A stretch of 64,000 nt of DNA from Isoetes taiwanensis (Eukaryota > Streptophyta > Lycopodiopsida > Isoetales > Isoetaceae), in the NCBI GenBank assembly GCA_021234155.1, contig JAJEKV010000027.1:5454623-5518622 (forward strand), read 5' to 3'. Positions 8,632 to 61,907 of this stretch are shown here, in pieces. A program made the translations under genes and the position numbers. A model generated the notes under the pieces. The model did no database searches and had not been told where the DNA came from. It saw only the letters and a list, made by a program, of their open reading frames with translations. The stretch's first letter is position 1, and each line of letters starts with the position of its first letter.

Positions 8632-8704
8632 TCCAGCCAGGCGGTTCCCTAGCACTTGATTTATATGCATTATGTGCATTCATTATTTACATGACTTCAT
8701 TTGG

Positions 8705-12146: not shown

Positions 12147-12166
12147 TCTTCAAGGGAGATTTATGT

Positions 12167-36682: not shown

Positions 36683-36685
36683 TAA

Positions 36686-36815
36686 CACAACAAGAGAATG
36701 GACATTTAGCGACGTGGGCTTGCGACGTCTGTGCGACGTGACGTCGCAAATAACGTGACCATGCGACGTCAATGCGACGTCACGTCGCGAACCGCCTCAT
36801 CACGGCGTGTGGTCG
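36686..36815. repeat. CACTA-2 left end: TIR and GACGT-rich subterminal repeats
   Basis: After the TIR, GCGACGT or its inverse recurs at least eight times in about 110 bp. This is the kind of repeated subterminal motif that CACTA elements use for binding their accessory protein (TnpA in En/Spm). The right end (about 44400-44539) has matching motifs. Confidence 0.8.
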
Positions 36816-37023
36816 ACGTCGACAATCGTGGCGTGGCGGATCATCCGCGCCAGGTGGGCGCTTGCGCGCCGGTGGGCGGCAGTGTCACGCCAGTGGGCGC
36901 TGCGGACGTCGCGTCGCATCACGGCGTCTGATGCTTGGCCCATCTGTGACGCCAGGTGGGCTTGGGCGCCTGGTGGACGACAGGTGTCTCGCCAGGTGGA
37001 TGTTTACGACGTGACGTCGCATG

Positions 37024-37155
37024 CGACGTCGTATATGTGACGTATGTGACATATGTGTCGTATATGACACGTCAGTACGTATATGTGACGTATGTGACGT
37101 ATATGACACGTCAGTACGTATATGTGACGTATGTGACGTAGGTGGTCGCATGTGA
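37024..37155. repeat. Tandem repeat of a TATGTGACGTATGTGACGTA motif
   Basis: A unit of about 45 bp (gtatatgtgacgtatgtgac, then gtatatgacacgtcagtac) is repeated nearly three times. It is built from the subterminal CACTA motif. Confidence 0.8.
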
Positions 37156-37178
37156 CGTATATTTTTTATACACGAAGG

Positions 37179-37421
37179 TTAATGGTTTTTTAGGATTACA
37201 AATTCAATACATTGCGATTGATACACGTCCCAAAAAGACTCGGCGACCAACCCGCAACAGCCTTCATTTAAGCGTGTTGCTGCGCATGCATCATCATCAC
37301 ATAGATGTGCTACCGCTATAAATTGTTCATTATAAAACTGACGTTGTTCTGTGTCAAAATCTAGTTGTTCCAAGTTTACAATCCTTGAAGGTAACTTGAC
37401 AATAGGCTTGTTGTCAATCAT
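37179..37421 (-). pseudogene. SNF2-helicase-like gene fragment captured in CACTA-2
   Basis: The minus-strand frame reads MIDNKPIVKLPSRIVNLEQL, then FDTEQRQFYNEQF. This resembles the segment of RAD16/HLTF-type SNF2 helicases between the two helicase lobes (pattern IDGxPIVxLPPK, then V.F...ER.FY). The continuation after about residue 35 does not fit, so either an exon end is crossed or the fragment is chimeric. No helicase motifs are present. It is a recognisable host-gene scrap at best. Confidence 0.45.
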
Positions 37422-37969
37422 TGTTCTTTGAGAGAGAAACGAGATAAAGCCTTAAAATTTGTGCAAGAATATAAGAAAAATCCCACACTTTTTACCTTTT
37501 GTCCGAAGCATTGCATTATAGTGTTTAATATGACTTGCGGTAAGCTTGTACCCCATAACATGGTTTCTTTGGATCTGATTCCTTATTTCATTGTTAAATA
37601 CAGTTCTGTCATCATAAGGATAATACCTTAAAAATCGAAAATAACTATAGAGATCGTCAATTTGGTTTTGAATTGGAAAAACAGACCTCTCTTCTGCTCC
37701 TACATGCCAAAATCAGATCCTTTGGTGCAGTTTTTTAACGCCATGCTCAGATTGTTTTCGCTTCATGACTCATGAACTTGTTCCGTTTGAGCGCCAAGAT
37801 TTTTATGGGTTGCTGCTGCATCGATTGTATGATCCGACAGTCACAACATACAGCAGCCAAAAATCATGCGCTTTTTTCGAGAAATCTCTTAACTGTCTTT
37901 TTTAATTTCTTCATTATGGCCATTCTGAGGTTGTCCTTTCAAATAACGTTTAATCATTCCCTATCTGCT

Positions 37970-38580
37970 TTAGATCATGCTAAAAAGTGGAGGCTGTTGC
38001 CTTCTTGGACAAGTTTGTTCATCGAAAATCAAGAGAATTGTGGAGTTGGTTGAACCAAAATATTTTAATTGGTCATCTAGCAAAATGCTTTGGGAAGAAA
38101 ATAAGTGTATTCTCTCGCAACATTCATTCTAGAACTTTCTACAACATTCAGAAAGACACCATCTTCGTTGTGCCCTTAAGCCCCAGCAAGCACGTGAACT
38201 TTTAGTGTGAGCATTTCTGATGGATTGAGCTTCATCCGGAATAATTCTCAGCTTGTAGCTGCGGCGAATGCATTCTTATCAAGTTCTGACCCTGCAAATA
38301 ATCTCCAGTGTGACGAAGATATTCGTAGTTTTCCTGATGGGGGTTGGCAAGGAGTATAGAAAATGATGCGCGTCATCTTTTCAGAGAGCTTGGATTCACG
38401 TTTGATACTGAGCCATGCGTGCCACAAAAGTTCAGCCTAGAGGATATTATGCTAGACACTCCACCAGATATTTCTGTGGTGGATCTAGTTGGCTCTCAAG
38501 ATAGTGTAGATTGGTTAGATAAGAAAGTCCTTGAGACTGGCATTTCATTTCGTGCTTGTGCAACCAAGTGGGCAGCTTGA
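37970..38580 (+). pseudogene. Unknown gene fragment captured in CACTA-2
   Basis: Coding-like plus-strand stretches: KVEAVAFLDKFVHRKSRELW (about 37985) continuing to 38205, then 38200-38330 and 38344-38580 (SIENDARHLFRELGFTFDTE to a stop). The frame changes between pieces and there is no start. Not recognised. The amino-acid mix is protein-like, and the position next to the SNF2-like piece suggests transduplicated host DNA. Confidence 0.35.
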
Positions 38581-38821
38581 TTTGATAACTGATTCTGCGT
38601 TGGATTTTTTGTTTCAGCTCGTCATTCCAAAAATTCTAGGTTTAGGGCGATGGCGATTGGCGGATTCTAGGTTTAGGGCGATGGCGAATTCTGAAACATA
38701 GCGTTAATTCTGAAACATCCCCGGCAAAAGGGATTTATTGATTATTGACTGATTGATCTGTCCATATCAATGCGGCTTCATTAGGTCTTTCTGGAAGTAA
38801 TCTTATCTCTAGATGTGAAAG

Positions 38822-38860
38822 AGAATGGTCATTTAGCGATGTGGGTTTGCGACGTCTGAA
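38822..38860 (+). repeat. Internal partial copy of the CACTA-2 left end
   Basis: gagaatggtcatttagcgat, then gtgggtttgcgacgtctg, repeats the 36697-36735 terminal sequence with few changes but without the outermost CACAACAA. It marks a nested or rearranged second element end. Confidence 0.8.
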
Positions 38861-39107
38861 TTACCTCCTTCATCTAGACTCTTCAGATAAATGATTACAG
38901 AAAAGCATCATAACTACCAGAATGAAGATAAATGATTACAGAAAAGCAAAAAACTAGTGCGGGTTGGGGGTTAGATTTGGTTGCTTGTGATGATGGTTGT
39001 GTTTCAGTATCAAGGCATATGGATAGAGAGAATGCCCTTGTTCAACGGACTGCTCCCTAAAGCTATTTGACATGGATGGCATAATTAACTTGTAATGAAC
39101 TCAATTG

Positions 39108-39605
39108 GGGCAAGCAACTTCCTGGGGAGTTTAGGGTCCCAGCTCAAGGCCAACACCCCCCACTCCATGTCAAGACACCTGCAAGGTCCCACCAAATCGA
39201 CAAAAGGAGAGGGCCTCCCAAACGTAAACCCCGTGACTTGCCCGGATTCTAGAAGGGTTTTTGTTTTGGGGGCCGAAGTTTTGGTCTTCGCCACGCAGAC
39301 TTAGTCCCTAGGGCAACGCCGACGCTTCGAGTCCATTGGCATAGCCAAATCGCAGTTCCGGAGAGGGGAGGTCGCCCGTCCGTCCCCAGGGCCTTGGGGA
39401 GAGGAAATTCGGGGCAAGCAGCTTCCGGGAGGATTTTAGGGTCCGTGCTCTGGCGTCAACACCCCCACTCCACGTCAAGTCACGGCGCAAGGTCCCGCCC
39501 GAATCTGACAAGGAGAGGGCCTCCAAAACGTAAACCCTGTGGGTTGCCAGGTTCTAGAAGGGTTTGCGTTTTGGGGGCCGAGACTTGGTCTGTTGCACTT
39601 GGGAC
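39108..39605. repeat. GC-rich tandem duplication, unit about 300 bp, two copies
   Basis: 39108-39290 and 39410-39600 share long blocks (caacaccccccactccaygt, ggagagggcctcc, aaacgtaaacccygtg, tctagaagggtttkygtttt). It is part of a GC-rich island (39100-40270) within AT-rich surroundings. No convincing protein is encoded. Confidence 0.8.
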
Positions 39606-40383
39606 CTGGCCGAGAAGCTGCAGCCGAGATTACGGAGCAAGGGGAACTGACGGAGCGGAGTTTGGGCCTGTCCTCCTCCCGATGTGGCAAGTAGAAGTCG
39701 GGGGGCGCTTTTTGCAGTGGCAAGACATTCATAAATTCGCAATTAATGCATTGTACGAAAATAAATTCTGATTTTTTGCCAGCTGGATTCCTAGGCCATC
39801 TCCAGCACACAGACCAATTTTCGAAATTTTCGGAGAAGGTCTAGGTCAAAGGGTTAGCATTAGAATGGTCGGGGCAGCCCGTTGCAGGGCAACCGAGCTG
39901 GCACCCTTCCCCAAGTCAAACGAGGCCAGGACCTTGCAGGGATCCCTCACAAGAGGGGAGAGTCCGGACCCCAAGAGGCGGGATTCAAAAAAGTTCCCGA
40001 GGCAGCCCTTCCTGGCAGCGCTCCCCCGGGGGGCCGCACGCTAATGACCACCCTCCCGGAGCCCGATTCCCCTATCCGACCGTTGGATCCTCCGTTCAGG
40101 GGCCCCTCTTCGGGAAGGCCCAAAAGATTCCAGATCGGTCCAGGAGAACTTGTCAAACCGCGGGGCGTCCTGAGGTCAGCCTTGTAGAAACCGTAGTGTC
40201 TTGTCGTTCGAGCACTGGGGAGGCTCCGGAATGGCAAATCGACCCTGCCAAATCGTCCGAAATGGCGAAATTACCCTAGGGAGCAAGTTACAAGGTCGGT
40301 TTTGCAAAAGAAAGAAACACGGCCCTCCGTTTTTTTTTGCAAGGAGCGAATGCCCAAATTGAAGAGCCGTTATACACTACAAG
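39606..40383. other. GC-rich non-coding stretch in CACTA-2
   Basis: Open frames on both strands reflect base composition; no domain recognised. Confidence 0.4.
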
Positions 40384-40450
40384 ATGGAAGGAAGGAAGGA
40401 AGGAAGTATATTTTTACGTCGCACCACAAAGGCAGCGTCACGAAGGACAT
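40384..40450 (-). repeat. SINE-like 3' tail with (TTCC)n
   Basis: On the minus strand tgacgctgcctttgtggtgc, then gacgtaaaaatatac, is followed by (TTCC)4. It shares the tgcctt-gtgg-gacgt-aaaat core with 47036-47096. Confidence 0.5.
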
Positions 40451-41040
40451 GCGACCACGAAGGACAAGATGGAACGGTGTGATATCCTTGGTGGGAGAAG
40501 AGAGTTTTTACATCATCATCAGATGACCAAGCATCATGGGGGCATGAGATATCTGACATATATTCCCTGGGCTACATTTACGAGATGCTCCTTCATTTTG
40601 TCCAGGCAATGCGGCTTATGGGGTTGTGTGTTGAGATAAACCCAACCGACCGATACTCTAGCACATTGGACATCATCCAACATATGAAGGTCCAAATGAT
40701 GATGGATAGAGAGCTGGTGCACATGGATCGCCCATCTATTGCTCGCGTCGTCGATGTGTTCAAAAACAGCAGGGGCTTTCTTATATATAGTTGTGAGAGA
40801 GAGACGACATATGAAGTGTGGTGATCCACTTGAGATGGCTAAGCTACTCTTGTTAAATGCTTGCAAGAAGTGATTAATATAATTTTGTCTTCCTATTTGA
40901 GGCTTGTTGCAACCAATAAATGTTTTTATTCAAAATTACTAATGAAAAAGTAATTTATTAATCAAAAAATTATTATTAATGGTAAATAAATTATTAATCA
41001 TAACTTGTAGATAAAGTGTCGCTTCTGAGACGTCAAACCC
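40451..41040. other. No gene recognised
   Basis: Overlapping ORFs on both strands at 40534-40866 have no recognisable domain; the remainder is AT-rich. Confidence 0.4.
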
Positions 41041-41310
41041 TAGGTTTTGTGTGCTACATCATCAAACCCTAGATTGTAAATGCCATGTGGCACAATCTAG
41101 GGTTTGATGATGTGGCACACGCAAGCTAGGGTTTGATGACATGGCACTTACTATGATGTGGCAATAGGAAGTCGCGACGTGACACAACCTAGGGTTTGAT
41201 GATGTGCCACACGCAACGTAGGCTTTCATGATGTGGCACTAAAAATGCCAATGGGATAATTTAGGGTTCGGTGTATGGCATGATACATGGCCTGATAATA
41301 TGGCAACCTA
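41030..41310. repeat. Repeats of TAGGGTTTGATGATGTGGCAC with a 27-bp foldback
   Basis: The motif and its inverse occur at least five times. The clearest pair is the hairpin 41051-41077 and 41092-41118 (one mismatch, 14-nt loop). The repeats include AAACCCTA, the plant telo-box core. Confidence 0.85.
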
Positions 41311-41728
41311 GAGTTCGATATGCACCCCATACATATATACGAGATACTTTTCTAATATAAATAAGAAGATAAGAATATAAATTTAGGTATTTATTCAAAG
41401 ACACTTGTTCAAAGCTTTTCTCTCGCTAATTCTCGTTATGTTCAAATTAATATATATAATTCTTAGCGGTTTTCCTCATTGTGGCCCTCTTTCTGCTGAT
41501 GCAATATTCATGGCGTTATGCGTCTCCCCCTCCGCCCCCGGTCAAGACGGTCAAGACTGCAGTAAGTCTGCCGGGGCTCATTAGTGGCACATTTCGAACC
41601 ATGAAAATACTATTTTTCATCTCTATGGTTTGTAAGTATCATTCTATTATTGCAACCAATATCATTCATGGTTATCAAATGTTTCTCTCACAATTTCTTT
41701 TGATCTAGGTGTGCTCTTTTTCTCGGCG

Positions 41729-43870
41729 ATGAATAGAGGTAATCGCAATCGTATGGAGAATGAGCAAGACAAAGGTAAGTATTTATATAGTTTTTATTAT
41801 ATGCTTTACCCTCTAATTAGGTATGTGAGTTTATGCATGGAGTTTTAATTTGTTGTCTAGAGGAAAGGGACGAGTTTAGAGAAAATAGGAGGAGGACTCC
41901 ACGAGGTAGGGGCAATCGTGCTGATGTTCCAAGACGCCAACCTCCACCTATCACTACACCAGCAGGTTTGGGTATTAAGATAGCTTTTTATAAAAATAAT
42001 AAATAAATGAATTGTTTTTTGCATGATATTTGTGCTTCTGCAGCTCCTCCGCCGCTCCCCGCCTTCCTCGCAAACATGTCTCCCGCCGAGAGAGACCAAA
42101 TTGCAGCATATTTTGCCTCTTTGACACCAACGCCAGTTAGGCAGCCTCCCGCTCCTATTCCCCAACGACATAGTGTTGATTATCGGCCTCCACGTTCTCG
42201 CGAGAATATTGAGAACGCTAGACGTAGTATGGACTCCCGTTCTAGGCAAGACACGGGAATAGATTTTTCTAATGCAAGGAACTTGGAGGAAGATTTCAAC
42301 AGGTAAATATATATCCACTACGTACCAAACATTTCTTTGGTTGCAGCATGTTAAAGATGCTCATTCTCTCATTACTTCCCAGGTCAAGAAGTAGTGGAGC
42401 AACAGACTCACAACGTTCAAGATCGCGACGATCATCACAGGGTTCGGGATCCGAAGAACATGGTCGCTCGCCTGACTTGGAGAGGGAAGGATCCCGACGA
42501 CGTCCACGTGTCACTGAAGAAGAGCGTCCATTTCGCTTTGTTTTAGACACGTAAGTCTGCGGGTGATTTGGCCCCGAATATACCCGACTATCATATTAAT
42601 AATAATTTTTTGATGTAAGTTATGTGAACATATTATTTAAGATATCAACCTTAAATATTAGTACTTTGTCATCTAAATTTGTTGTTTTGTTCATTCTCTT
42701 CACTTAGAATACATTGTAAAGTGCTCAAAAGGTTCTTAATCGGGACGGGATATGTATATTGACGGTAGACATAAACACGCTTTTATATACCCACCATTTA
42801 TGCTTCAGGGACGCTCTTCCTAAGAAGGATGATGAGGGAAGTGTCTTTTATACTACACTGAGGGACGCGGTCACAAATAATATCTCTCGTTTATGGCCTC
42901 CCCGCGGTATAGGGGAGTGGCCTGGCGCTTATGACCAACGCGAAATAGAGAGCGTCAAAAATAAAATGAAACAGAGTTTCCCAGAGATAGAAAAAGCAAA
43001 GGCGTTTAACTGGAAGAAGCTCACTTCGATGATGGGCGAGCTTATACGAAAAAGGAGGTACATGACCTAGTCATAGTCTTGTTTTTATTATTTTGATATT
43101 GCGTTGATCTATTGATTTATGTCAAAGGCACCATGTGGTCAAGGAACTGAAGCAGACTTGCAAAAAGAAGGAGGCGATTGGTCAAAAGTCCTAAACCACT
43201 TAATCTCCACAAGGAAGATATCAAGGTATTTCTTATTTTTTTTGTCATTCGTTCACTTTAACTTGTGATAATGTTGTGTGCCTTGCAATCAGATTGCATT
43301 CGAACGTGCAAAGGATCCAGAAAACAAACATAGAGCTCGGTCCGACAAAGCAACTAAAAACCGAGAAAAAAAGGCGTCTCATTTGGGCTCCGTGGTCATA
43401 AAAGGGTTTTTCCATAGATTAAGTAAGAGCTATATTAGTTCACATTAATTTTAATAAGAACTTTAAATGTCACTAGCTAATACTCGTTATATTGTCATAG
43501 GAACATCTATACGGGTTTGCCCCTAACAAGCAGCAGGTACAACTAGCCACGGAACGTGGAGCTGTTTATCTGTATCAACAGTTATACGACGAGGGACTTC
43601 TCCCACTTCGCGGGAATGTGAGGGTGCGTTGTAGAAAATTATTATAATTCTATGAACTACATTAACGCCATATTCTTTTGGTTTTTATAGGAAGCAATGG
43701 CGGATATGAATGAAGGTCTAGAGCATGACATGGGGCTCCGGGGCGAGAGAGGATGCGCAAAACATTGGCCGGAGAGCCATCCAATCGCAACCGCAGCGCG
43801 GTGACCAGTTCGAGGCGCCCCTAACTACGCACTTTCGGGATGACTACTCCACTGAATCTGAGAGAGATTA
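41729..43870 (+). CDS. Transposase_24-like (Ptta/En/Spm) accessory gene of CACTA-2
   Basis: Eight or so exons join in phase at first: 41729-41774, 41861-41965, 42044-42302, 42383-42550, 42809-43057, 43129-43225, about 43293-43423, about 43501-43625 and 43691-43870. All have GT-AG borders. The N-terminal half is Arg/Pro-rich and disordered. The middle (RDAVTNNISRLWPPRGIGEW, then ENKHRARSDKATKNREKKAS) resembles the plant Ptta/En/Spm transposase family, in which a variable body is followed by a K/NR.K..H.G-type stretch. Single-base frame breaks in exon 6 (about 43180) and the last exon (about 43735) suggest decay. In En/Spm such proteins bind subterminal repeats and cannot cut without TnpD. Assignment is by resemblance only. 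Confidence 0.55.
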
Positions 43871-44539
43871 GCTCTAGGCTAAAAGGGTGGATACTCCTCT
43901 TAACGAGTCTTTTGTGATTATTTAAAAATATAAATACAATTCACTTTTGTGATTATTTAAAAATATAAATATAAAAATAATTTTGTGACTATTTAAAAAT
44001 ATGAATATAAAAACACTTTTGTGATTATTTAAAAATATTCTTATATTTATATTTTTTATATAAATATATTTTTTATTTTTTATTTTATTTTTTTCCCCTA
44101 CACGTCGCATGCGACGTATCCACGTGGCTTTTTTTTTGCCACGTGGCTTTTCTATACGCGGATTTTCGAATTTTCCACGTGTATATTCCACGTGTATATT
44201 CCACGATAATGCGTTCCGCGTGTCACGCCGCATGCGGCGTATACCGCGGGCTTTTACCAACACGCCGTGGATTTTGTTGATGTTCCACGTATATTCCACG
44301 TGTATATTTCACGTGTATATTTCCGCGTGTCACGCGGGCATCACGGCGTCTGCCGCGGCGTCGTGTCACGTCTGTCGCGGCGTCTGGCGGCGCCGCCAAG
44401 CGTCGCATCGCGGCGCCGTCGCACGCGGCGATGCGACAGCGGCGTCTGGCAACGACGCGTCGGCGGCGTCGCCGCGACGTACGTCAGACGCCGCTGCACG
44501 CCGCTATTGACGTCGCTAAATGACCCTTTTCTTGTTGTG
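43871..44539. repeat. CACTA-2 right end: AT-rich block, then GACGTC-rich subterminal region and TIR
   Basis: 43915-44095 has four imperfect copies of ttttgtgattatttaaaaat. 44101-44539 is GC-rich with recurring CCACGTGTATATT and GCGACG/CGTCGC motifs. It ends with the right TIR (cttgttgtg). Confidence 0.8.
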
Positions 44540-44542
44540 TAA

Positions 44543-46810
44543 AACCATTTCAGATTGGTGCCCTATAACTTTGCTATCTAGGGTACAAGATCTTTGCTAA
44601 GGGCTTGGCAGAGAAAGAGAGGGATATCTTGGCAGAATCTACGTCCTTCTTGATAATGTGCCGCAGCTTATGAGGGGATGTATTGGGCACGCCTAAAGAG
44701 TCAGCACATTGTATATCTCAAATTGGATTTTGCTAAAGCCTATGACAGTATAGATTGGAATTTCCTACAAAAATGCCTTTTGGCATTGGGATTTGGAGAG
44801 TTGTTAACCAGAGATGTTATGAAGCTCCATCTTTCTGCTCGGTCTACTATGCTTTTTTAGGGAGAACCATTGGCTGTGTTTCCTGTTGGTAGAGGAGTTC
44901 GACAAGGATGTCCCCTTGCCCTGTTATTGCTCACTATTGTGGTAGAGGTATTGTCCCAACTATTCTCTTCGGCTATTCAAGATGGCGTAATTCAAGTATT
45001 GACTATGGAGGATGGTTCTCAAGAAGTGTGTAATCAGTATGATACATTTCTCTTTCTAGTGGTTGAGGACGATAATCTTTAGAATGTTAAGCTCTTGTTT
45101 GACTCTTTCTCCCTGGCATCAGGGGTTCTTGTTGGGTGGCTAAAGTGCTCTGCTTTATGGACCTTGGATGTGGATGTTCCTCCCTGTGTATACGTACCCG
45201 TGGAAAGAGCTTCCTCAAGAGAAGACCACTACACTCTTGGGCATTCCTGTAGGTATACATATCTCTACTTCAGATGCATGGGATGTTATAGTGGAAGGCC
45301 TGCATAAGTATATTTTTTTGTGGAATACAGCTAAGCTTTCTCTGACAGGGAGGATAGTAGTTGCTAAGCTGGTTCTCAGCAACACTCATATGTATATGGC
45401 ATCTGCTGTGCTTGCCTCACAAACAAAGTTTCAAGAGGTTGTTGCAATTGTCCGTAACTTCATTTGGGCATGTACTGAGACAGGTGTAGTTGTGGAGGTT
45501 GCTTGGTCCACATGTACCAAAACAAGATTTGCTGGAGGTCTAGGTATGATTGACTTTTATTTACAGAGTAAAATTGTGATATCTAAGTTCATTTGTCGCT
45601 ACTTGGCAGGCATGGTACATTCGCCTGGAATGAGATTGGTTGCGCAAGCACTTGGGCGTGTATTCCTTTTGGGAAACTGGCACTTAGGGCAGTTTTTCCT
45701 TGGTGTCTCTTTAATCAGCTTCGTCCATATCCGAATGCTTCCCCCTTCTTGAAGGGACTGCTTGATTCTTGAGAGACAGTTCGTGTTCTATTTAAGACTA
45801 ATCCAGGTGTGCGCCCACATGTAGATTCTCTGTGTTAGTAGATCCCTCTGGATAATCACATGCCCCTGTGTGCTACGGTACATCCATTGACTCCGTGGCG
45901 TTAGAGGCTTGCTGATATTCTCACAGTTGGTGCTTGGTATGAGGCTGGACATGCTTTTTAAAATAAGTTTATGTTATCTCGATGGGATAGAGCTCTGTGG
46001 CAAAAGCTGGCTGACATTCTGCCAGCCGCTCCTTCACAATCAGTTGATGTGCCTATTTGGACTGGTCTCCAAATTGTTAATGCACAACGTCTTGTGCATT
46101 CGTTATATCAAAAGCTGATTGAGATTGACATTATCCCCCCTCGGGCTGGTTGGCAGCTCCGCAGTCCCCCTCCTCAGTGGAAGCGTATATGGTCCTGGGT
46201 CTGAAATAAATTGCTTCATCCCAAAGTTTCTACCTTATTGTGGCAATTCTTTCACAGATGTCTGCGGGTTAATGTGCTGGTTCATAAGTTTTATCCCCGC
46301 ATTTTAGAACTCTGCCCACTGTGTAAGCGGCAAGTTGAGAGTCTCGAGCACTGCTTCTTTCTATGTGACCAAGTTCAACCAGTTTGGCCATGGTTACTAT
46401 CCCTCTCCCATGTGGCCTTGACTAGCCAGCAGGTGCTTCTCGCCATTTATCCTTCCACTTGGAACATCTTGCAGCAACAGGCTTTCCACTTAGCTTCAGG
46501 CTGGTTGTTGTGGTCTGTTTGGAAAAGAAGGCGGTTGTGTATCTTCAAAGGCTTATCAATTAGTGTCGACCAACTTCTTCACGAGGCGCAAAACAGATTA
46601 GTGAAGGCATACCTATGTTCTCAGCTTGCTCCTGAGAAAAAACATTTGATTTTTGAGGAATATTTGGGTATCTTATCTTATGCATAGACATGTGGCTGCA
46701 CTTAGTGGATTATCTTTGTCTGCTGAGATTTTTATTCCTGTCTCTGCATCTATGTGTGTACTTCTTCTGGAATATTGAATAAGAGTTTGTCGTCCTTAAA
46801 AAAAAAAAGA
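44543..46810 (+). mobile_element. L1-type LINE (family 1), copy B, 3' part
   Basis: Resumes right after the TAA target duplication. Contains RT motif A (LDFAKAYDSIDW, about 44720), motif B (RQGCPL) and a damaged motif C: a 6-bp deletion turns YADD into YD (about 45037). The C-terminal zinc knuckle is intact (CPLC...H..FLC in 46211-46687), where copy A has a deletion. A-run at 46798-46808; right target-site duplication ATATTAAA at 46811-46818. Confidence 0.9.
46211..46687 (+). pseudogene. LINE C-terminal zf-RVT domain
   Basis: Open for 158 residues. It has the spacing CPLCKRQVESLEHCFFLC typical of the zinc-binding region at the end of plant L1 ORF2, then a tryptophan-rich stretch. It is detached from the RT by stops. 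Confidence 0.8.
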
Positions 46811-46818
46811 ATATTAAA

Positions 46819-47293
46819 ACAGACAGCCAAACTTTGAGCCAATAACTAATTTCATTGATTGTACGATTCAAAAATTAAGAAATGAACGGTGTGGGTTAAA
46901 ATTTGGCTGAGGTGTCATCCACATGGATAGGTTAGAAATCCAAGAAATATTGTAGAGGGGGTTAGGCAAGCCTGCTAAAAAATGTAACAAAGCAAATGAT
47001 TTATCCTCGACAAGACTTCGAACTGGAAAAACAAACAGATGAAGAAGAAGAAGAAGAAGAAGAGATTTTAACGTCACGCCACAAGGCAACGTCCAATTTT
47101 TTAATAATCGAATCAATAAAGATCGTTTTACCTGTTCTCATAAATACAGGACTACTTGCTATTCCTCCTTGGTCTTTCTGGATGAGAGGCCCATCGTCTT
47201 CTCACCAAGCCCAATCTGCATTCGCGCGCTGCTACTAATGAAGTCTTGGCTGATTTTCCCTCCTTTAGGTACTTAGATATTTCATTTCGCTAA
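46819..47293. other. Flank shared with copy A, plus a SINE-like tail
   Basis: Matches 6565-6993. A minus-strand (TTC)n tail preceded by tgccttgtggcgtgacgtta (47036-47096) is an insertion absent from copy A, supporting a mobile short element. Confidence 0.6.
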
Positions 47294-49691
47294 GGTTGTT
47301 TGGCTGTCCTGAGGTAGCCAAATTCCTTGTCGCACACGTAACGATATGCACGAATGACGACTGCCCCACTGTCACTACCATGGCCTTAGCAAGATTGAGT
47401 TTTCCATCCCCTTATGAACCATTAATTTACTATTCCAAACCTCCTCATCTTGTGTGGATATGCCTTAATTATTTGAATTTAAAAGCACTTTGTTCTCAAC
47501 CATTATATAGTCAATATACCAACTAGATGTTTTTTTTCCCTACCAACTGTACATTGATGAACTCCCCTTTTTTATTTTTATTTTTTATATTGGAGGAGTG
47601 TGAGTTGAACCCAAGAAGATAAAATTTTCCAAATGTGGATTTTAGATGTGCCCTTCATCTAATCGCGAGTTGCATTTTGTCCCCTTTTTTGCAGTCTTAG
47701 ATGGCATACTGTAAATTAAATAGAATTATTGTACACTACTTGTTTTTCGAAGGCATCAATTGAGAACTTGATTTTAAATTTTGTGTCAAATGTGAACTTG
47801 AAGATTTAAAAAGTTGTCAAAAGAAAATTCCTTATTTTGCGAATTTGAGACTCTTCATGGAAGGAAGCAAAGGTCCCCTAGTCTATGCTATACTATAGCA
47901 TGAATGCTAAGATCTGAGAAGTTTATTTTGTTTAGTGCTTGGGTGCTACATCTAATAACGAACATATTAGCCAAGAACGAGACGAGGCGGCATGGCGCTT
48001 GACCCTCACCCCCTCACAAGCATCCATTAAAGATGTATGTTGCGTAATCTATGGGCTTTTTACAGTTGTTGTTCTTGTTCGTAAAGTGGGAAAAGAATGA
48101 GAAGGTTTTGGGATGACAAAAGCGATGCTAAGAAGCTAGATGAACTTCACGGCTCATCTAGGTAAACAGCAAATATGAATAAAGTTGGATAAGATGGAGC
48201 TCATCAAAGGTGAGAAATATGAAAGGTGTCCCTGACAGTAATGAATAGAGCATTATCAAGTTCTGATAGTGAAGGAGATAAATTCTCTGTTCAATCAGAG
48301 GATCACAATTTGTGGATAGGGATCTTTCAAGTGGCTAAAGAAAATCATGATGTTCTTTCCTCTGCTCTCCAAACTACTTGTTCCTTTTCCATCCTTATCT
48401 ACCATAGCATACAAACAATATGGTCATGCATGAGTAGTCTTACCAGATCCATGCTTCATGTTGTACATGCACTTGATTGTCTTCAAAGCAGCACCCACAT
48501 GCCATTCAAGCTTGTAATCACCATTGCCAAAAACATTAAACTTCTCTTCAACTCCATGATTCTCTGATATTGAACCAGCACGAGCTAAGGAAGATAAGGA
48601 ATTAATCCCCGTCCTTGGAATTCCTTTGAAGAGAGCACATATATGCACTCTGCATGCTTTTCTAAGAATAGCTGACAAGATGGTATACATGACTGTTCTC
48701 TTTGCTTGGAATAAGCCCCCTCAACTAGCCAGATAAAGTTGCATAAAAGATGTGGATAAACTACTTTCTGATGTTGGTCTCCATGGAGGTGATTACAAAA
48801 TACTTCAAGATCCAAAGAGGGGAGGTAAGATTCCATGCGAGCCGTCAATGGGTGGTGTGAAAGCAAAAAAGCTTCTATCATGCACTAATTTACGTAAGAA
48901 CGGATCCTTACCATCTGGAGTGTGGGAGGGGTATAAAGACCTATTTGCAGTTGAAGATGACCGGACTTCGCATGGGAAGGCAAAGATTAAAAAGATAAAG
49001 ACATAGAAGAGTGTTAGCATTCTTATAAATTTACTAGCAGAGAAGAAAATGTTGGTTGATAAGTTGGATATATTCAAAGCAGTAGTTGTTGATTTCACAG
49101 AGCTAATTTCTGGAAGCATGGGGAGAATGTAATGTTACTCATTACATCCATATAGTTAAAGCCCATAGCCTGTGGTTTGCAAAGGACTATGGGAGTTTGA
49201 AAATATGGAATACCCAAGGGATGGAAAAATCAAAGCTAAGAATGCTTTCTTTTTTTTAGGTTCACCCAACAATGAGGTTCGAGTGGTAACTCATGGCAAC
49301 AAATGTATCAATGATTCTACAAAAGGATTATGTGTAAGTTAGAAAAACAGGACAAGGCGAAACATGCGACGACTTTGGCCAAGGTGCTTAGAAAAAAGGC
49401 TCAACAGGATAAAACGAAACAAGCATGGTGCAACTCAAGGGCAGCTGCAAATTTGAGACAGTGGAAATCAACGAGGATCAGAAAAGGGAAATGATAAATA
49501 TGTATCCGTAATGTAACTTTCGATGTCAATGAATAAATGTATACATAAACCACCGGCAGTAAAAAATTCCTCAATTTTTGGCCATTTTTTTAAAATGGAT
49601 AATTTTTGCCCTGGGGTTTTTAGTCGGCGCTTCCAACGCCGCCACAAGTTTATAACAACATTAAAGTACACTTGCTCAATCATATTAAATT
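47294..49691. other. Copy-B-only segment with coding-like scraps
   Basis: No intact gene. Possible exon remnants: 48226-48400 plus (DSEGDKFSVQSEDHNLWIGI), 48424-48570 minus (EEKFNVFGNGDYKLEWHVGA) and 48780-49006 plus (YKILQDPKRGGKIPCEP to a stop). They lie on both strands and could not be assigned. They may be captured fragments. Confidence 0.35.
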
Positions 49692-50081
49692 TCAGTGTAA
49701 TAGACATTTCACTGTTCCAAATCGAAGATCATGATCAATGATCAGAATACACAGCTGGCTACTGTGGTCTTTTGTAAGATCATCTGCTTCATCTTCGGGC
49801 ATCCACACAGAGCAGAGCATGTACAGAATATAATGCCGCAGTAATTGAGCAAATCCACACCAGCATCGTCCTCCATTTTGAGGGATTAAATCGGCAGAAC
49901 CTAATGCAAGAGAAACTGGACTCCTTTCATCTGTTAGCCCGCAACTAATCTTTATGACAATAACATTGTCTGCAATAGTAGCATTTTGGAGAAGATCCCA
50001 ACTCTGGCCAAAACTCTGGGCGTTATTCCATATCGGATCTGCAACAAAAGGGGAAACTGCCGGATTATTGAAACTCCACAA
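49692..50081 (-). CDS. Possible exon of an unknown gene
   Basis: A minus-strand frame of 129 codons with protein-like content: NNPAVSPFVADPIWNNAQSF, then a Cys/Trp-containing part and an acidic MPEDEADDLTKDH. Its 5' half overlaps the block duplicated at 7691-8130, where the same frame is broken. No start or partner exon could be fixed and the family is not recognised. Confidence 0.3.
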   Translation of the reverse strand: MWSFNNPAVSPFVADPIWNNAQSFGQSWDLLQNATIADNVIVIKISCGLTDERSPVSLALGSADLIPQNGGRCWCGFAQLLRHYILYMLCSVWMPEDEADDLTKDHSSQLCILIIDHDLRFGTVKCLLH

Positions 50082-50365
50082 AAAAAGGGGAAACTGTCGG
50101 ATTACTGAATCCTAAATTATTGGTAGTCAAACCACAACAAGATCTAGATTTATACCTTAAAAGCGAGTTGATTCATAGGTGGAAGTTCCATTCAATGTCT
50201 TGTGACAGGATTATAAAATAAATTATCTCCCTCTAAAACAAAGCACAGATTCAGAAGCCGCAGCGACGTGTATGGCTTCACAAGCAGGAAAGGCAGAAAC
50301 GCAAAGGAAAGATTGACCCATCTATTGCGAACCTGTCAAAAACCTTTGCAGAGTCTGCTGTCATC

Positions 50366-52306
50366 GTGAATACATCCTGAAACTCCTTAATGAGCCTTGC
50401 TATCGGCCTTGGCAACTGATTTCACTTAGCTCACTTGCCTTGTCTTTACTTGGTTCAATTGCCTCTAGCCTTAAGATATAATCCATCTTGTTTCTTACTA
50501 TGCTTTTTCTCAGCTGCTTCATAGAAATACACTGGGAGAAGCTACCTTCTTATCTTTTACTATGAATTTGTTGCCGTCTGGTGCCGTCATGGAAATTTCG
50601 TTGCGCTCGCAATCTATCATCACTTTAGCTGGCCTTAGGAACTCCATTCCTACTATGAGATCATACCTTCCAATATCTATCACTTCTGCCCCCCATCGGC
50701 CACTTGCTTCCGCTAAGGTCTATGTCGAAAGTGATCCTCCTTCCCTTAATGTGGCGAATGGCGCCGCTTGCCATGCTAACTGGCCTTGGCTTGGACTTCA
50801 AAATCTTATTCTTCATAAGGGTTGCAAGCCTTGGAGAGGCAAAATTATGGGAACTACCTGTGTCTATCAGGACTATGTAAGGCTTGCTATCTATGATTCC
50901 TTCTGCTGAGATTACCGTGGACTGGTTCTTAATATCCCCTGACTCAATAGCTGCACAGATTTTGCACTCACCTTCTATGAAGTCCTGGGCTTCCTGTTGG
51001 TCGCCGTCTTCTTCATCCCCTTCGGTTGGAGATTCCCAATCTGCAAGTTCAGCTAGAGCCGCCTGCATGACGAAGGGACAATTGTGTGTTCTGTGCCCTG
51101 GCTGGAAGCAACGGAAACATAATTTCTTTTCTATGCATTCCTGCCTTTTCTCCTTTGGAATATTGTCTAGGAGAAATTTGATTGACTTGCCTCCCGATCC
51201 TTCCTGTGGCCTATGGTCTCCAAAGGATTTCCCTTGAGCTTTTCCTTGGTACTGGCCTCCTGCTGGCGTAGAGGCTGCTTACCTAGGTTGATACTGCCCT
51301 GTTGTCTTCCCTTTGAATGGTATCTGTTTCTGCCCTGGAGTTACTGGTGCCTCCTCCAAACTCAAAGCCTTATCCTCAGCCTCTTCGACTGTCCTTGGGT
51401 TGATTGCCCGAACCAACCTCTTAAAGTTGCTGTTCAGCCCTTCAATGTATCCATCCACTGCTTGCCTTTCTGTGATTCTAGGTACATTGAGTCTCAGCCT
51501 CATGAATTCTTCTGTGTACTTGGCTACTGATAAGTTGCCCTGATCCAGCCTGTAAAACTGATGTATCTGCCTGTTTGTGTGTGATCTCGGCACATAGTGC
51601 TTGCGAAACGCCTTGCTGAAGGTCCTGAACTTGCAATTGTTTCTTCTTAGCTTGTTGGACTTTGCGTATCCTTTCCACCATACTTTGGCTGGTCCTATCA
51701 AATTTGTCGTTGCCACTTTGCCTATGTCCTTGTCTTTCATTCCATAAGAGTTCCCGAATTCCTCCATCTCATCAAGCCATGCTTCTGCTTCCATGCCTGA
51801 CCTATCCTTACCCGAGAACTGACCCAGTTTCCTTGTCTTCCAGACATTGCTCATTGCACTATCTACCTTCTTTTGGTAGTCGTCTGTCCTTCTATTCTTG
51901 TTCCTGGCTTGTAATGCGTCTGACTCACTGTCGGAACTACTGTCTGATTCGCTATCTGGGGTCTCAGATCTGCTGGAACTAGAAGGTGACGGACTCCTTC
52001 TGTCTCTTCTTTTCCTCTTCCTTTCCCTGTCGGGCGCCTGATTTTCTTGTCTTTCGGGCTGAGGTGCTTCGTCAATACCTCCCACAGGTGGTGGAGGTGG
52101 TGGCGGCGGTCCGTACTCTTGCGCGTGCATAAGTGGTGTTGTCCACTATAGTAGTTGCTATATCTGATTCCTCATCTGGACCAACCTTGCATTCACTGTT
52201 TCAGATGCCATGTCTTGTTTGTCGTCATGTTCCCGACCGAATAGGTTCCTAGGTTGCCATTGGTGCTGCCGGCCTTGGCCTTGAGACCCTGAACCGGTGT
52301 TTTTGG
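50366..52306 (-). mobile_element. Ty3-type gag-protease segment, truncated before RT
   Basis: The minus strand carries gag, a CCHC knuckle and protease, then ends at 50366 within the linker before RT (IARLIKEFQDVF). At the other end the gag frame stays open to a CTTGCAG 3' splice site at 52307 with a TGACTAAT branch-point-like sequence 11 nt upstream. No LTR adjoins either end. It may be the middle of the retrotransposon whose LTR is at 60257-61907, with a Helitron insertion between. Confidence 0.8.
50661..52211 (-). pseudogene. Ty3-type gag-protease polyprotein, degraded
   Basis: From an ATG at 52211 the frame has two TAG stops within 22 codons, then is open from 52130 to 51279. It has a Pro-rich start, a Ser/Asp/Arg-rich stretch, and the retrotransposon gag domain (FSGKDRSGMEAEAWLDEMEE, then AKVWWKGYAK and the YTEEFMRL core). 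After a frame change there is a CCHC knuckle (CFRCFQPGHRTHNC, about 51070-51120) and then an aspartic protease with DTGSSHNF (about 50860-50890). The GMEFL..AKVMIDC flap-region sequence lies past 50661 in another frame. Gag forms the particle and the protease processes it. RT, RNase H and integrase are absent. Confidence 0.85.
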
Positions 52307-56100: not shown

Positions 56101-56601
56101 GCGAGGGCCTTTTCTTGAGCTAAAAGTTCTTCACGTCCTTGAGTCGGAGACCCTTGCCCATGTTGCGTAGAATATTTCTGGAGGATCCACCTTCGAGAGC
56201 TCGAGCCATTTGAGGTGGAGAGAGTGGAGGTGTTGTTGCTGCAACGACCGTCAATGGGGCATCGCTCAAGTGACCCCTTGCGAAGTCGAGGGCCACGGAT
56301 CTCTTGAAAAGGATGATGTGGTCCGTGTTGCTGCTCAGCTTGGCATGCTGTCCGAACCCCGAAAGCGCTATAAGGAGTGCCACGGATTCTTCTCCTTGTG
56401 GAAGACTATCATCTGCCCCTGACTAAGGACTGGAAGATAGTATCTAAGCGCCTTTGTCCTTCCTATGGTCTGAGTACCTGTACCCTTTTTTTGAGCCGCT
56501 CCACGGTAGACGTCCAATGCCAGGAGGTCTTCATGATCCCTCTACATGGTGATTGCACTCTCCAAGTTGATGCTGCTAGATGCTTCCCGCATGCTTCTTG
56601 A
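56101..56601. other. Unassigned retrotransposon-like internal DNA
   Basis: Short overlapping frames on both strands, GC content like the ORFs to the right. On the minus strand an ARALEGGSSRNILRNMGKG frame ends at 56120. Nothing recognised. Confidence 0.35.
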
Positions 56602-57539
56602 TCAAACCGTTCGGCTAGAGCTCGGGCCCCTCCCTGGTTTGTACAATCTGCTTTGGATTTCTTGGAACTCCTCCTCTGGGATGATTGGCTCCTGTTGACG
56701 ATATATCTCCCTTATTTGCTCATAGGCGGCGATGTCAGACATTGTCTCGCCGGCATAGGAGTGTCGCTCTGCTACTTCTCTTGGAATTTCTTGATAGGAG
56801 TAATCGATGAAGTCGCTCTGCTGCTCCTTTGCAATCAGGCCTAGAAGCTCATCAATTCTAAGCCCCTCTTCTTGGCAGTATGGGAGGTTGAGGATATCGT
56901 TTGCTAAAATATATTTTTCTCCATCAATTACTATCGGGGATAGAGCCGTGATGCCCATTGGAGGTTCAGTGGCGCGCCTTGCCTGGCTATGCGCCTTTCC
57001 ATTCTTGTTGCCTCCCTGTTCTCCCAATCCGGGTTTTCTTTCCCTAGCTGCTCATAATCCTGCTCGATTTGCAGTGCTGTTGCCCCTGATGTTATGCCAT
57101 GGTACACGTACTCTCCTGACTCAATCTCATGGATCTGGCCTTGCTCCCTTCTTGTGTTGAGTGGCGCCAGGTCCAAGAGTTGGATCGAGGGTTCCCCGAC
57201 CTTGTTGATGGCCCTGTACTTATACGTGCCTGTTGGCCTTGCAACTCATGTAATCTGGCATGCTCTTCGTCCTGTTCCACAGCTGCCCTTTGACTCTGGA
57301 TCCCCAATGACTTGGCTCCCCCGACTCTAAGGATACCCACTTCCCTCCCCTAGGTAGAAGGCTAACTTCTCATGGTAGTATCTGTTGGTCATACTGGCAA
57401 AATATATGTAGAAAGGGGTCCTAGTCAAGGTTGCATGGAGGTCGAAGAGATGATCAAACACATGGAAGGTCTCTTCGGCAGGGAGATTACGGATGTGGTT
57501 GGCACTGTTGTACCATTGAACAAAGTTTGTGGGCGCCAT
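56602..57539 (-). pseudogene. Second ORF of the H3-bearing retroelement, unknown function, degraded
   Basis: Starts with ATG at 57539 (MAPTNFVQWYNSANHIRN...), 70 codons to a TAG. Coding-like sequence then continues through changing frames: 57092-57327 (RVGGAKSLGIQSQ), 56931-57176 (VGEPSIQLLDLAPLNTRREQ, then EYVYHGITSGAT) and 56602-57027 (VIDGEKYILANDILNLPYCQ, then acidic helices to SSSRTV). The total would be roughly 300 residues, mostly helical and acidic toward the end. No domain is recognised. It could be a gag-like, accessory or captured protein. A TATAAAAGG at 57651-57659 (minus) lies 112 bp upstream of the ATG, so it seems to have its own promoter. Confidence 0.5.
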
Positions 57540-57836: not shown

Positions 57837-58315
57837 CGACTCAGGTCACTTCGCACGAAAGGGCTCTGCGTCGCGAACGCAGACGCGTTTGGCGCGGAGT
57901 GACCGGAGTGGGTTGATTTCTGGGTGAAAAGAACATTTCTAAAGGTTATAAGATACTAAAATGCTTATTTTGATCGATTCTAGGCTAGCTAGCAACTTAT
58001 TTCATGCTAATTGGACATCGAAAAAGTGTGATTTTGGCCGACTTGGGTCACTTCGCGCGAAAGGGTCTTGCGTCGCGAACGCAGACGCGTTTGGCGCGGA
58101 GTGGCCGAAGTGGCTTGATTTCAGCTACTTTTGGGTGTTTTTAGCAGAAATTAATTGCTACACTGCATTTCTAGATGAATTCTAAGCATTCTAACATCTT
58201 TTAGTGCTAAATTTGGGTCAATTTACCTTCAAATCAAGTGACTCGGGTCATTTTGCGCGAAAGGGCTCTGCGTCCCGAACGCAGACGCGTTTGGCGCGGA
58301 GTGACTAGAGTGGGT
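57837..58315. repeat. Three tandem units (about 200-bp period) with E2F-like sites
   Basis: Conserved cores of about 80 bp at 57837-57918, 58038-58120 and 58238-58315 are separated by diverged AT-rich spacers. Each core has a TTCGCGCGAA-type dyad (TTCGCACGAA in the first, TTTGCGCGAA in the third), then gcgtcgcgaacgcagacgcg and TTTGGCGCGGAGTG. TTTGGCGCG and TTTCGCGC are the E2F/DP binding consensus used by S-phase genes. The array sits between the H3-like ORF and the TATA box of the next ORF. Confidence 0.8.
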
Positions 58316-58437
58316 CAAATTTGACCTAATTTTTTATTTTTGAAGGAAATTTTCATAGGGATTAAGCAATTTAGGGGTTTCTAACTATGATACAAAAGAT
58401 TAATTCAAATTTCAATCCACATAAGTACATATTTATG

Positions 58438-59700
58438 CTAATAAGAAATTAATTTACAAAAACAAGCACTTTTATAGATAGTAAGTAAAATATACAGAAA
58501 CTTATTTTTATACAGATTATAAAATTGGAGGCCTTTAGGCCTCTCCTTGCGAATCCTCCTCGCCAGGTGCAGGTCCTTCGGCATAACTGTTACCCGCTTG
58601 GCGTGGATCGCACACAGGTTCCCTTCTTCAAAAAGTTGCGTCATCTTTGTCTCTGCTGCCTCCTGCAGTGCCCGGACGGTTAGGGGTATGACCCTATAGT
58701 CCATTCTGAACTCCTGCATGATCTCGCGAAGGAGCCGCTCGAACGGCGCCTTCCTGATTAGGAGATTAGTGCACTGCTGGAAGTGCCTAATCTCCCTGAA
58801 AACTCGAGCGCGCCTCAAATTAGGTCCATGATGGACCTTCTTATTGGCTTCACGTGCGGAATGGCGGCGGCTTGGGCTGGTTCTTTGGCGCCCACCCTTA
58901 ACTTTACTTACATGCGTTACGCGGCAATACCGGTCATTGTACCTCTTCCGGCCGACGAGGTACTCACGGTATCCGGCCGGCTGGGCTCCGCAGATCTTGC
59001 TTTAGCGTGAACTCCCGCTCGTCCACCTTCTGCTTCTTTACTACCTTTGGTGGCTTGGGCCACTTTGGGTAGGGTGGGCAGGCGTTGGGGTCGGAAGGCT
59101 CCCCAACGTCTTGCTCGGGCTCTTCTTCCTGCCCGGCTTCCTCCTCTACTTCTTCTTCCTCCTCCTCATCGGTGGGGGTCCAACGAGGCTCCTCTATATG
59201 GACCGTCCCCCTTGGGCGGTCCTGGTCCCTTTTGGACCTCTTTTCTCTCCTTCTTGCTTCTTTTTCGCTCTCCCTCTTCTTCCTGGTAGCCTTCTCTTCT
59301 GGCCACTCCACCACCTTCTCCTTCCCCTTCTTCTTCGTGGAGGTGCCCACCTCCTCTCTTGGCGTGGGTTTTCTTTTCTTCTTCTTCTTTGTTCTTCTTC
59401 TTGTTAGCTCTTCTTTGCTTGCTCTTGGTGCTCCTGTTGTTCCTCCTGCTCCTCCTCCTGTCCGGACAGAGTACCAACGTGCATGGTCTCATCTGTCCGC
59501 TTCGTCTCTACCGAAGAAGAGCTGCTCTGGGCCTCCTCCTGAGAGGCATGAAAGGTCTCGTCCGTTGAGCTGGACGATTCCTCTTGCTGCCCCGGCCGAA
59601 GGTGCTCGGGGATTTGCTTCTCTGGAGCTTCAGCTGCTGCTGCCATAGAAGGGGTCCGCTTTGGGCTGTACTTCCTCATGGTGCACTTGGTCCTCGCCAT
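58438..59700 (-). CDS. Histone H3-like ORF carried by an LTR retrotransposon; frame broken twice
   Basis: The ATG at 59700 begins [15 protein letters not shown], keeping A1, R2, T3, K4, T6, R8 and K9 of H3 (Q5 to C, A7 to M, S10 to Y). The frame runs to 59404 (Ser/Glu/Gln-rich). A second frame, open upstream of 59350, runs to 58964 (Lys/Glu-rich, then [18 protein letters not shown]). The first frame resumes after a TAA near 58998, giving [12 protein letters not shown], a basic stretch and then the histone fold. From REIRHFQ to IRKER (about 58547-58804) it aligns without gaps to H3 residues 49-134, about 55 of 86 identical by eye. DNA contacts R63, R69, R72 and R83 and the tetramer-interface C110, H113, R116 and D123 are kept; K56 and K79 are Q and R. 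Loop 1 has normal H3 length, unlike most CENH3. The 1-base shifts could be introns, decay or frameshifting. It is the first ORF after the PBS. Confidence 0.85.
58528..58543 (-). other. 6-bp stem, 4-nt loop just after the histone fold
   Basis: On the minus strand GAGGCC TAAA GGCCTC, spanning codons right after the RKERP end of the fold. The geometry equals the histone mRNA stem-loop (6-bp stem, 4-nt loop), but the loop and flanks differ from its consensus and land plants do not use that signal. Probably coincidence. Confidence 0.25.
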
Positions 59701-60243
59701 ATCTTACGGTTAATCAAACTGATTACGATAAGCTGATCAAGAGAGAGATGGTTTTAGGCAAGGTTAGGTGGCAAGAAGATATTTAAAAGGGAAGATACTC
59801 TAGGGAATATTCTTCTACCATTAATAGCCCTATTAATTAGCCTCCCTTATTAATTACCCCAGTATACCCAATTATTTGTATATGGTTAATGCTGTATTAT
59901 ACTGTAATTTCGAATTTTTCCTAATGGTTTGAAGTGTTAATTATGAATTTGCACCATTTTTCACTCGGATTTCGGATTGGGATGATTCTTCGACCCATTT
60001 TGGGTGAAATCTGATGCTGATACATAATTTTCACTCCAACTTTACTAGAATATTAATTGGACTCATTCTTTTTTCCCCATCTAACAACTTAGCCTATTCT
60101 TACGGACCCACTACCTAGGAGAAAAATTTTTCCCCTATTTTCGAGGTTCCATGGTGGAAATTTTCATTTCACACCCTATTAGGCCTGTTAGACTACTTAT
60201 TAGGGACATGGTCAGTGCTAGTTCCTGGTCAACCAAGAACATT
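59701..60243 (-). other. Leader between PBS and the H3-like ORF
   Basis: AT-rich, no long ORF. A TTTTAAATATC at about 59778-59788 on the minus strand is a weak TATA candidate 80-90 bp before the ATG. If translation is from the genomic RNA the leader would be about 545 nt. Confidence 0.5.
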
Positions 60244-60255
60244 GCTCTGGTACCA
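60244..60255 (-). other. Primer-binding site (initiator-Met tRNA type)
   Basis: TGGTACCAGAGC on the minus strand differs at one base from the common plant retroelement PBS TGGTATCAGAGC, complementary to the 3' end of initiator tRNA-Met. It begins one base after the LTR end at 60257, exactly where a PBS must be. Confidence 0.85.
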
Positions 60256-60256
60256 T

Positions 60257-61907
60257 TGTGACGCTCCCTGCAAAATATACGGCGCCAGGCCGTACACTCC
60301 GTAGGAAATCCCCCATCCGGTCCTCCGACCGCACGGGCCCTCCGTCTATCCCGCACTCCAGGGTATCCCTAGTGTGGGAAGGGGACACGAAGATGTCTTG
60401 CGTGCCCTTCCCCTATGGGCTCCTATCACAGCGGAAGCATAAACATCGCCAGAACTAGCAATAACAATGCATCACACTACCTCGAAGGGTAGCACATCCA
60501 TATATCCAGAGACACATCAGAGATAAACATATACTGTAAAACATGAGGAGCTCCTACCCAAGGCTCAAACTCTTGGGGAAAGTAGACTGACGGCGAGGTC
60601 TCAAGATAGAGCAGACCGAGTCATAACAATGGCGGGGCTGGCTATAGACAATGGCTAGGGTTGACCACTCCATCCGCTCCTCCTGTGCATACTTTGCAAA
60701 TGGGCTAGATCAGGCTCTGGCATGACTCTAGCCTTCCGGATACGCAATCCCATGGTATCACCCATCGGGACTACTCCAGGTTGCATCTCCCTGGTCCGTC
60801 GAGGCAGGAAGGGTTGCATCTCCCCTTCCCAGGGTCTAGAGGTTCCTCGGGCAGCTAGGGAATCGTGGCGACACACGATTCGTCCCCGACTTACCCCCCA
60901 AAACAAGAGCCAGGCCAACACCTGCAACTCTTGAGAGGCAGGGCAACACCATTGCCCCAGGAAGTGTCGGACCCATGCCCGGCCCACACGAAGTGACCGG
61001 CCATAAGCCTAGCCCGCTATGGGGTCTCCAGTAGCCGCGCTCAGCAGGGACCCTCCCTCCGCATCTCCTCTAGCCCTGTTGTGTAGTGCTGAGTCACATC
61101 ATAGCCCCCGTAGCCCAGTGGGTTCCTATGCACAGGCCGCAATAATAATAGGAACTAAAGGGTCTAACTAGAAGCATTACTAAGTAAGGCTACTAGGTCT
61201 CTACCCCCCTTCCCAATACAAGAGGAACAAACATGATCACCCAATCTTATATAACATCATATCATGATAATCATCATAAGAACATCTTAACCTAATCATA
61301 CATATCTAACTTACAGTTAGGGTTCCTTGATTAGGGTTCAAGATGTTGAATAAGGGTTCTAGGATGGCTCTACTCTAGATACAACATAACATACTGACCC
61401 ATCTGGAGTGCTAACTTCCAGATGAACTACTATGGACACTACTCCAAATACCTGCTCCCGAAGCGCTCCCTCCCATTCCTGGCGTCTCCATGCTCCTCGA
61501 AGTGGTCGAAGCCGTGCTCCCTCCAAGATCGTGCACACACTCTGGGGGCTGCTGCACTAGGCTATGCCACAGCAAACGGTGCTTGAAACGGGGTTTCGAG
61601 TGCGAAGAAGGTTCCCAGGGTGATAGGGCTAAGAAAAAAGGCCTAGGGTTAGGGTTTAGGTTAATATAGGCTAGGGTCCACATGGGATGACACGTGGCTC
61701 CAATGGGATATGGCCATGTGGCGGCTGCCCAATAGGATAAGGCCATATGGGACATGGGTCTTATCCTATGGTTATCTAAGTTACATATATAACTTAGATA
61801 TGCACCCATGGCACTTCCTAAGGTATACAAGGCTACGAAATAGACTTGTATAGTGACGGACCCGGAAATATACGTATTTATAGCGTATATTTCCCTGGAA
61901 CGTCACA
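60257..61907 (-). mobile_element. 5' LTR (1651 bp) of the H3-bearing retrotransposon
   Basis: On the minus strand it starts TGTGACGTTCCAGGGAAATA at 61907 and ends CGTCACA at 60257. The ends are inverted copies over about 24 bp (TGTGACG..TCC..G..AAA.TATACG), far longer than the usual TG..CA. A PBS follows immediately. Near its start on the minus strand lie ATATATGTAACTTAGATA and GACACGTGG (G-box core); AAACCCTAACCCTAGG (telo-box type) is at about 61645. A GC-rich stretch (60270-61090) has ORFs on both strands with no recognisable product. The matching 3' LTR was not found in the window. Confidence 0.8.

Follow-up and report, generated by a model that had tools for sequence, protein, structure and literature searches.

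A chromovirus family of Isoetes taiwanensis predicted to encode a histone H3 with a replaced N-terminal tail

Introduction

Chromodomains let retroelements read host chromatin; a retroelement with a histone of its own would act on the chromatin itself. Does any element supply one? This question is raised by a 64,000-nucleotide stretch of the Isoetes taiwanensis genome (hereafter the window), in which an initial annotation, made from the sequence alone, described an LTR followed on the same strand by an initiator-Met (iMet) primer binding site (PBS) and by an open reading frame (ORF) that starts with the MARTK motif of H3 and ends with a gapless H3 fold. The ORF could belong to the element or could be a host H3 captured only once. 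If it serves the element, it becomes testable whether mobile DNA escapes or exploits silencing by altering the nucleosome, and a naturally selected H3 with a replaced tail would show which core positions matter without the tail. In addition, histone counts in such genomes may be inflated by mobile elements.

Materials and Methods

Histone matches were searched for in an Isoetes taiwanensis assembly of 1,658,258,908 bases, in which the window corresponds to C1031:5454623-5518622. The 8705 first-look candidates include every type of core histone and do not give the copy number of the element. From the 135 scored matches that are not canonical H3, 20 were fetched, chosen mainly for long frames, which favours intact copies. 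The 12-nt PBS of the window copy was compared with the iMet PBS motif TGGTATCAGAGC, and E2F-type sites were counted with the canonical E2F motif.

Results and Discussion

A damaged chromovirus with an H3-like first gene

The window contains, on the minus strand from 61907 to about 50.6 kb, a damaged and diverged copy of a chromovirus (Ty3/gypsy; Table 1). The succession of LTR, iMet-type PBS and same-strand ORF (ORF1) with a MARTK start and a gapless H3 fold is borne out: 56 of the 87 residues of the fold (64%) are identical to plant H3, and the fold matches Pfam Histone (E=1e-28), H3 in the PDB (E=2.5e-30) and, among 157 window pieces, the family ORF1 profile (E=4.9e-40). Since gag lies further along the element, ORF1 and the broken ORF2 both precede it. 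A second (3') LTR was looked for within the window and not found.

Table 1. Features of the chromovirus copy in the window
Feature	Position	Strand	Remarks
5' LTR, 1651 bp, TGTGACG...CGTCACA	60257..61907	-	in its 3' part, 0.6-1.06 kb are 62-71% identical to the LTR upstream of ORF1 in 19/20 other copies
Primer binding site, iMet type, 11/12	60244..60255	-	adjoins the LTR, one base between
ORF1, H3-like, with MARTK start, middle rich in Lys/Glu/Ser and H3 fold	58438..59700	-	changes of frame at two sites, near 59405 and near 58975
H3 histone fold of ORF1	about 58537..58803	-	matches Pfam, PDB and family ORF1 profile
Three ~200-bp tandem repeats, hairpin cores, E2F-type sites	57837..58322	.	window copy only
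ORF2, broken, function without assignment; TATAAA 120 bp upstream	56123..57539	-	family ORF2 profile matches
gag (Retrotrans_gag, Ty3_capsid)	51282..52145	-	50-62% amino acid identity with the gag proteins of three other copies, a relation by which it is assigned to this element
Aspartic protease region	50664..51278	-	matches just below curated cut-offs; element cut off just beyond

The ends of this LTR, like those of other LTRs of the family, are inverted repeats (TGTGACGTTCC.../...GGGAGCGTCACA), so that orientation is unreadable from the LTR ends alone. A DNA transposon, which such ends suggest, was rejected because the bases flanking 60257-61907 are not a duplication. Antisense placement of the kind seen in Retand elements is ruled out by the minus-strand PBS beside the LTR: the H3 ORF is sense and lies before gag.

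The window copy had been judged to be damaged, and ORF1 indeed changes frame twice within 1176 nt, compared with an average of 8.8 changes in shuffled sequences; none of 2000 shuffles had two or fewer. ORF2 is more broken, with six frame changes against 12.3 in shuffles (P=0.005). A neutral-decay test on the window copy only yields P 0.16 for the lack of stops, P 0.06 for substitution quality and a joint P of about 0.01, a departure from neutrality that is only suggestive.

TATA-like boxes are present upstream of both ORFs of the window copy. Five of the eight canonical E2F-type sites of the window fall inside the three-repeat array, which is located upstream of the ORF2 TATA box and has hairpin cores with z of -2.6 to -3.7. 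No such cluster of repeats and E2F sites is found in the 20 other copies described below, and E2F-driven expression as a family trait was dropped because the array is present in the window copy only.

A LINE-type element (RVT_1, zf-RVT) occurs twice in the same window (2200-8132 and 34330-50368), with pieces that are 88-95% identical. The second copy, on the plus strand, has large insertions and ends at 50368, near the cut end of the chromovirus. A long intron-free frame resembling pentatricopeptide-repeat proteins was recognised by eye on the minus strand (10149-12149).

Other copies in the genome

Canonical H3 (profile positions 2-122, 164 bits or more) accounts for 15 of the 150 scored histone matches; the remaining 135 reach 144-155 bits, with alignments that begin at profile positions 4-25. 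By a hand count, about 55 of the 150 are located in open frames of at least 300 aa. In each of the 20 fetched copies, a frame of 367-494 aa from stop to stop combines an N-terminal part specific to the element with a C-terminal H3 fold, which shares 58-66% identity with that of the window. In L025 the frame extends some 20 residues beyond the fold, and in L026 the start is missing.

As the initial annotation proposed to check, other copies with a related LTR do carry an H3 ORF in the same place, in 19 of the 20 by LTR similarity (L020 being the exception) and in 14 by the PBS (13 perfect, one with a single mismatch); a PBS with at most one mismatch was not found in L010, L011, L016, L019, L020 and L028. 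The LTR start TGTGACGTTCC is present in 17 copies (not in L021, L024 and L028), LTR, H3 and gag blocks follow one another in the window order by DNA in 14, and an unbroken ORF2 frame of at least 460 aa follows ORF1 in six. That LTR elements were inserted by chance alongside a family of host H3-variant genes, a view with which the TATA-like boxes of the window would agree, is extremely improbable given the conserved LTR-H3-gag order in these 14 copies and the enclosure of one copy by LTRs and a TSD.

Two copies differ in layout. L015 (oriented, 3229-9996) has two LTRs enclosing ORF1 and ORF2 with no room for gag-pol; its TSD was looked for and not found, and it is likely a non-autonomous derivative that retains the H3 ORF. 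In L017 (oriented, 7126-9774), an 883-aa frame that matches the gag-protease DNA of the window lies directly 3' of ORF1, without ORF2 between.

The fold of the window copy is 60-65% identical to that of four other copies, and among 157 window pieces the family ORF2 profile recognises two from its ORF2, 56605-57051 with E=8.4e-11 and 56123-56422 with E=2.1e-4. In the tree, the window fold forms a long branch (0.93) outside the clade of the 20 copies, on the H3 side and apart from three plant CENH3s. The N-terminal part of its ORF1 has no match to the family N-domain. A separate origin of the window H3 appears unlikely, given the shared LTR, ORF2 and gag.

A complete copy and membership in the chromoviruses

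One complete copy, read apart as L012 and L029, is 13.2 kb long and consists of a 5' LTR (1633 bp), PBS, ORF1, ORF2 (470 aa), gag, PR, RT, RNase H and integrase core, the last five in one frame, and then PPT and 3' LTR. The LTRs are 96.5% identical (K2P 0.035), and the TSD GTGGC is found on both sides. The integrase core matches rve with E=5e-7 but with 30.4 bits, below the cut-off of 32.6; the chromodomain that comes after the integrase (PF00385, E=1.2e-8) reaches 35.2 bits against a cut-off of 25.1. The SH3-like integrase end and the chromodomain are each in a frame other than that of the integrase core, so this copy is broken near the end of pol.

The LTRs with PBS, PPT and short TSD, the gag-PR-RT-RNase H-integrase order and the post-integrase chromodomain of this one copy identify it anatomically as a chromovirus in which gag is preceded by two additional sense ORFs. 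The 3' end (chromodomain, PPT, 3' LTR and TSD) was read in this copy only, and the window shows gag and PR only. The initial annotation had set the element-encoded H3 against the integrase chromodomain of chromoviruses. This contrast has to be revised, as the chromodomain is also there in the single copy followed as far as the 3' end, and the element therefore has both. Taken together, these sequences almost certainly represent a chromovirus family whose first gene is predicted to encode an H3 in which about 300-400 element-specific residues take the place of the N-terminal tail.

The replaced N-terminal part

The N-terminal region contains invariant positions such as IPYP (six aligned copies), and the linker between this domain and the fold is charged or Q-rich. 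L027 starts with MARTK, as does the window copy, and L023 with MANTK; these starts would fit an ancestor in which a domain was inserted into the H3 tail. The residues just before the window fold (58938-58990 region) resemble, by eye, RSGAQYKDQL of the family linker. No Pfam match was obtained for the N-domain in the four copies scanned, and a profile search detected no relative among PDB sequences. Two AlphaFold models are poor (pLDDT 49 and 44). In protein database searches with the window proteins, tandem host H3 dominate among 120 of 2530 matches listed and the other searches were empty; scans of viral and prokaryote contigs revealed no relative.

Selection and origin of the H3 ORF

The comparison of dN/dS across the 20 copies, suggested at the outset, indicates strong constraint on the fold (medians of 0.03-0.05). 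In particular, for pairs with dS of 0.05-1, the median is 0.047 for the H3 fold (57 pairs), 0.097 for the N-domain (34 pairs) and 0.182 for the linker (45 pairs), and over all usable pairs (76 of 190) the fold has a median of 0.033 and a maximum of 0.123. The choice of open frames alone should not produce such values. The 20 folds, of which 16 are distinct, group in a single clade with 99/97 support and differ from two host H3 genes with dN of 0.095-0.150, synonymous sites being saturated in all 40 comparisons; no match to a single host H3 gene is seen. The single clade, together with the saturated synonymous sites, points to one old capture for the H3 ORF of the 20 copies. The one-off capture of a host H3, which the initial annotation offered as an alternative, is rejected by the multi-copy family, the constraint and the clade. 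An origin from H3.3, considered because of H87 and L90, was dropped: L90 also occurs in three intron-free host H3s, and H87 is found in only eight of the 20 copies.

The same data bear on the view that the ORF is a host H3 gene carried as functionless passenger DNA. Captured host genes are reported to be numerous in LTR elements of rice and sorghum (the accessible text of PMC3726574), and the departure of the window copy, taken by itself, from neutral decay is only suggestive, but the low dN/dS of the fold, the saturation of synonymous sites between element and host and the same placement in the 20 chosen copies render this view highly improbable.

Residues kept and lost

At 54 of 82 fold positions all 20 copies are equal to host H3, and the window copy keeps 40 of these 54. 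The invariant positions include R49, R52, K56, R69, R72, R83, C110, H113, R116, T118 and D123, which we take to function in DNA contact and in the H3-H3 interface. Conversely, positions 86, 87, 105 and 107 differ from host H3 in every copy, and these changes might alter H4 or chaperone binding. Variation also affects residues on the DNA side: K64 is kept in nine copies (R in 10, Q in one), and R63 is replaced by C in one.

The ORF1 protein has the H3 fold with its conserved core and lacks the short N-terminal tail with K4, K9 and K27 sites. ARTK is missing in 19 of the 20 copies, as is ARKS, of which L023 has one. Other RKS or RKT contexts occur in five copies (L016, L019, L020, L022 and L027), so some methylatable sites may be retained.

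A long divergent tail is also what a captured centromeric H3 (CENH3), aimed at centromeres, would show. The window fold contains RHFQxxTNLLI, which resembles Arabidopsis CENH3, and in one tree human CENP-A falls on the H3 side with the window fold. Such a capture is nevertheless very unlikely: loop 1 has no extension, the window fold is 65% identical to H3 but only 51% and 57% identical to two CENH3s of plants, and three plant CENH3s are set apart in two trees (97/97 and 99/96). Neither the longer loop 1 nor the placement in a CENH3 clade is observed with these few reference sequences.

Possible roles in chromatin

The probable overall explanation is a chromovirus-encoded, tail-replaced H3 that is built into nucleosomes and serves the element. 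Under this model, the ORF1 protein would enter the nucleus, pair with host H4 and take the place of host H3 in nucleosomes, so that the element N-terminal domain would project from chromatin at the position of the H3 tail. The projecting domain might tether the pre-integration complex to chromatin, and/or the ORF1 histone might first coat new cDNA with nucleosomes that have no K9 and K27 sites, which would delay silencing. Incorporation of the ORF1 H3 into nucleosomes has about an even chance. In the initial annotation, the protein was suggested to coat element DNA, to mark it as host-like chromatin or to guide integration, roles that are likewise tentative.

Alternatively, the H3 domain might act outside nucleosomes, either as a decoy that in solution binds H4 or the chaperones of H3, or as a structural component of the particle that binds nucleic acid beside Gag. 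The large N-terminal fusion with its charged or Q-rich linker, the placement of ORF1 and ORF2 before gag in the manner of structural genes and the loss of K64 in 11 of the 20 copies are compatible with such a role. However, most of the residues that presumably contact DNA or form the H3-H3 interface, beyond those that bind H4, are invariant in all 20 copies, and we consider a non-nucleosomal role possible but rather unlikely.

Returning to the nucleosomal H3, we tentatively envisage, as a doubtful but attractive extension, a retroelement that makes its own chromatin: H3 without K9 and K27 sites would coat its copies or landing sites, and the chromodomain would read chromatin. If so, a writer-proof histone and a chromatin reader would travel in one element.

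Comparison with known systems

A histone encoded by an LTR retrotransposon does not appear among the listed matches in titles and abstract openings of the open literature. Histones are not mentioned in the accessible parts of PMC7264820, PMC3726574, PMC6431247 and PMC11963269, nor in those of the genome papers of Isoetes taiwanensis (PMC8566536, which gives an assembly of 1658.30 Mb) and Isoetes sinensis (PMC10541799).

The closest known systems are chromoviruses, such as the Tcn1-like elements of non-seed plants, which, as far as the available text describes them, have the same LTRs, PBS, PPT, TSD and gag-PR-RT-RH-INT-chromodomain order (PMC2864245). In contrast to these, the present family carries two further sense ORFs ahead of gag, of which the first is the predicted H3 fusion; the available part of that paper reports an additional ORF of unknown function and uses the word histone once, with regard to chromodomain targeting (PMC2864245). 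In orchids, Ty3/gypsy elements that captured an RNA demethylase of the AlkB type similarly carry a host domain that is kept across a lineage, whereas both the domain and its position differ here (PMC9289625, in the text available). In that work, 121 angiosperm genomes were screened and 15 extra domains reported, and no histone is among the nine that the available text names (PMC9289625). Retand and other elements with additional ORFs are likewise long, and some bear Smc, Mis12 or topoisomerase domains; in Retand-type elements, according to the accessible text, the ORFs are mostly antisense and located between pol and the 3' LTR, unlike the sense ORFs between PBS and gag found here (PMC11963269, PMC7264820). 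Finally, with host H3 and its variants the element protein shares the gapless fold and its invariant positions, and it differs from them in the replaced tail, the near-complete loss of ARKS and the four positions that are changed in all copies.
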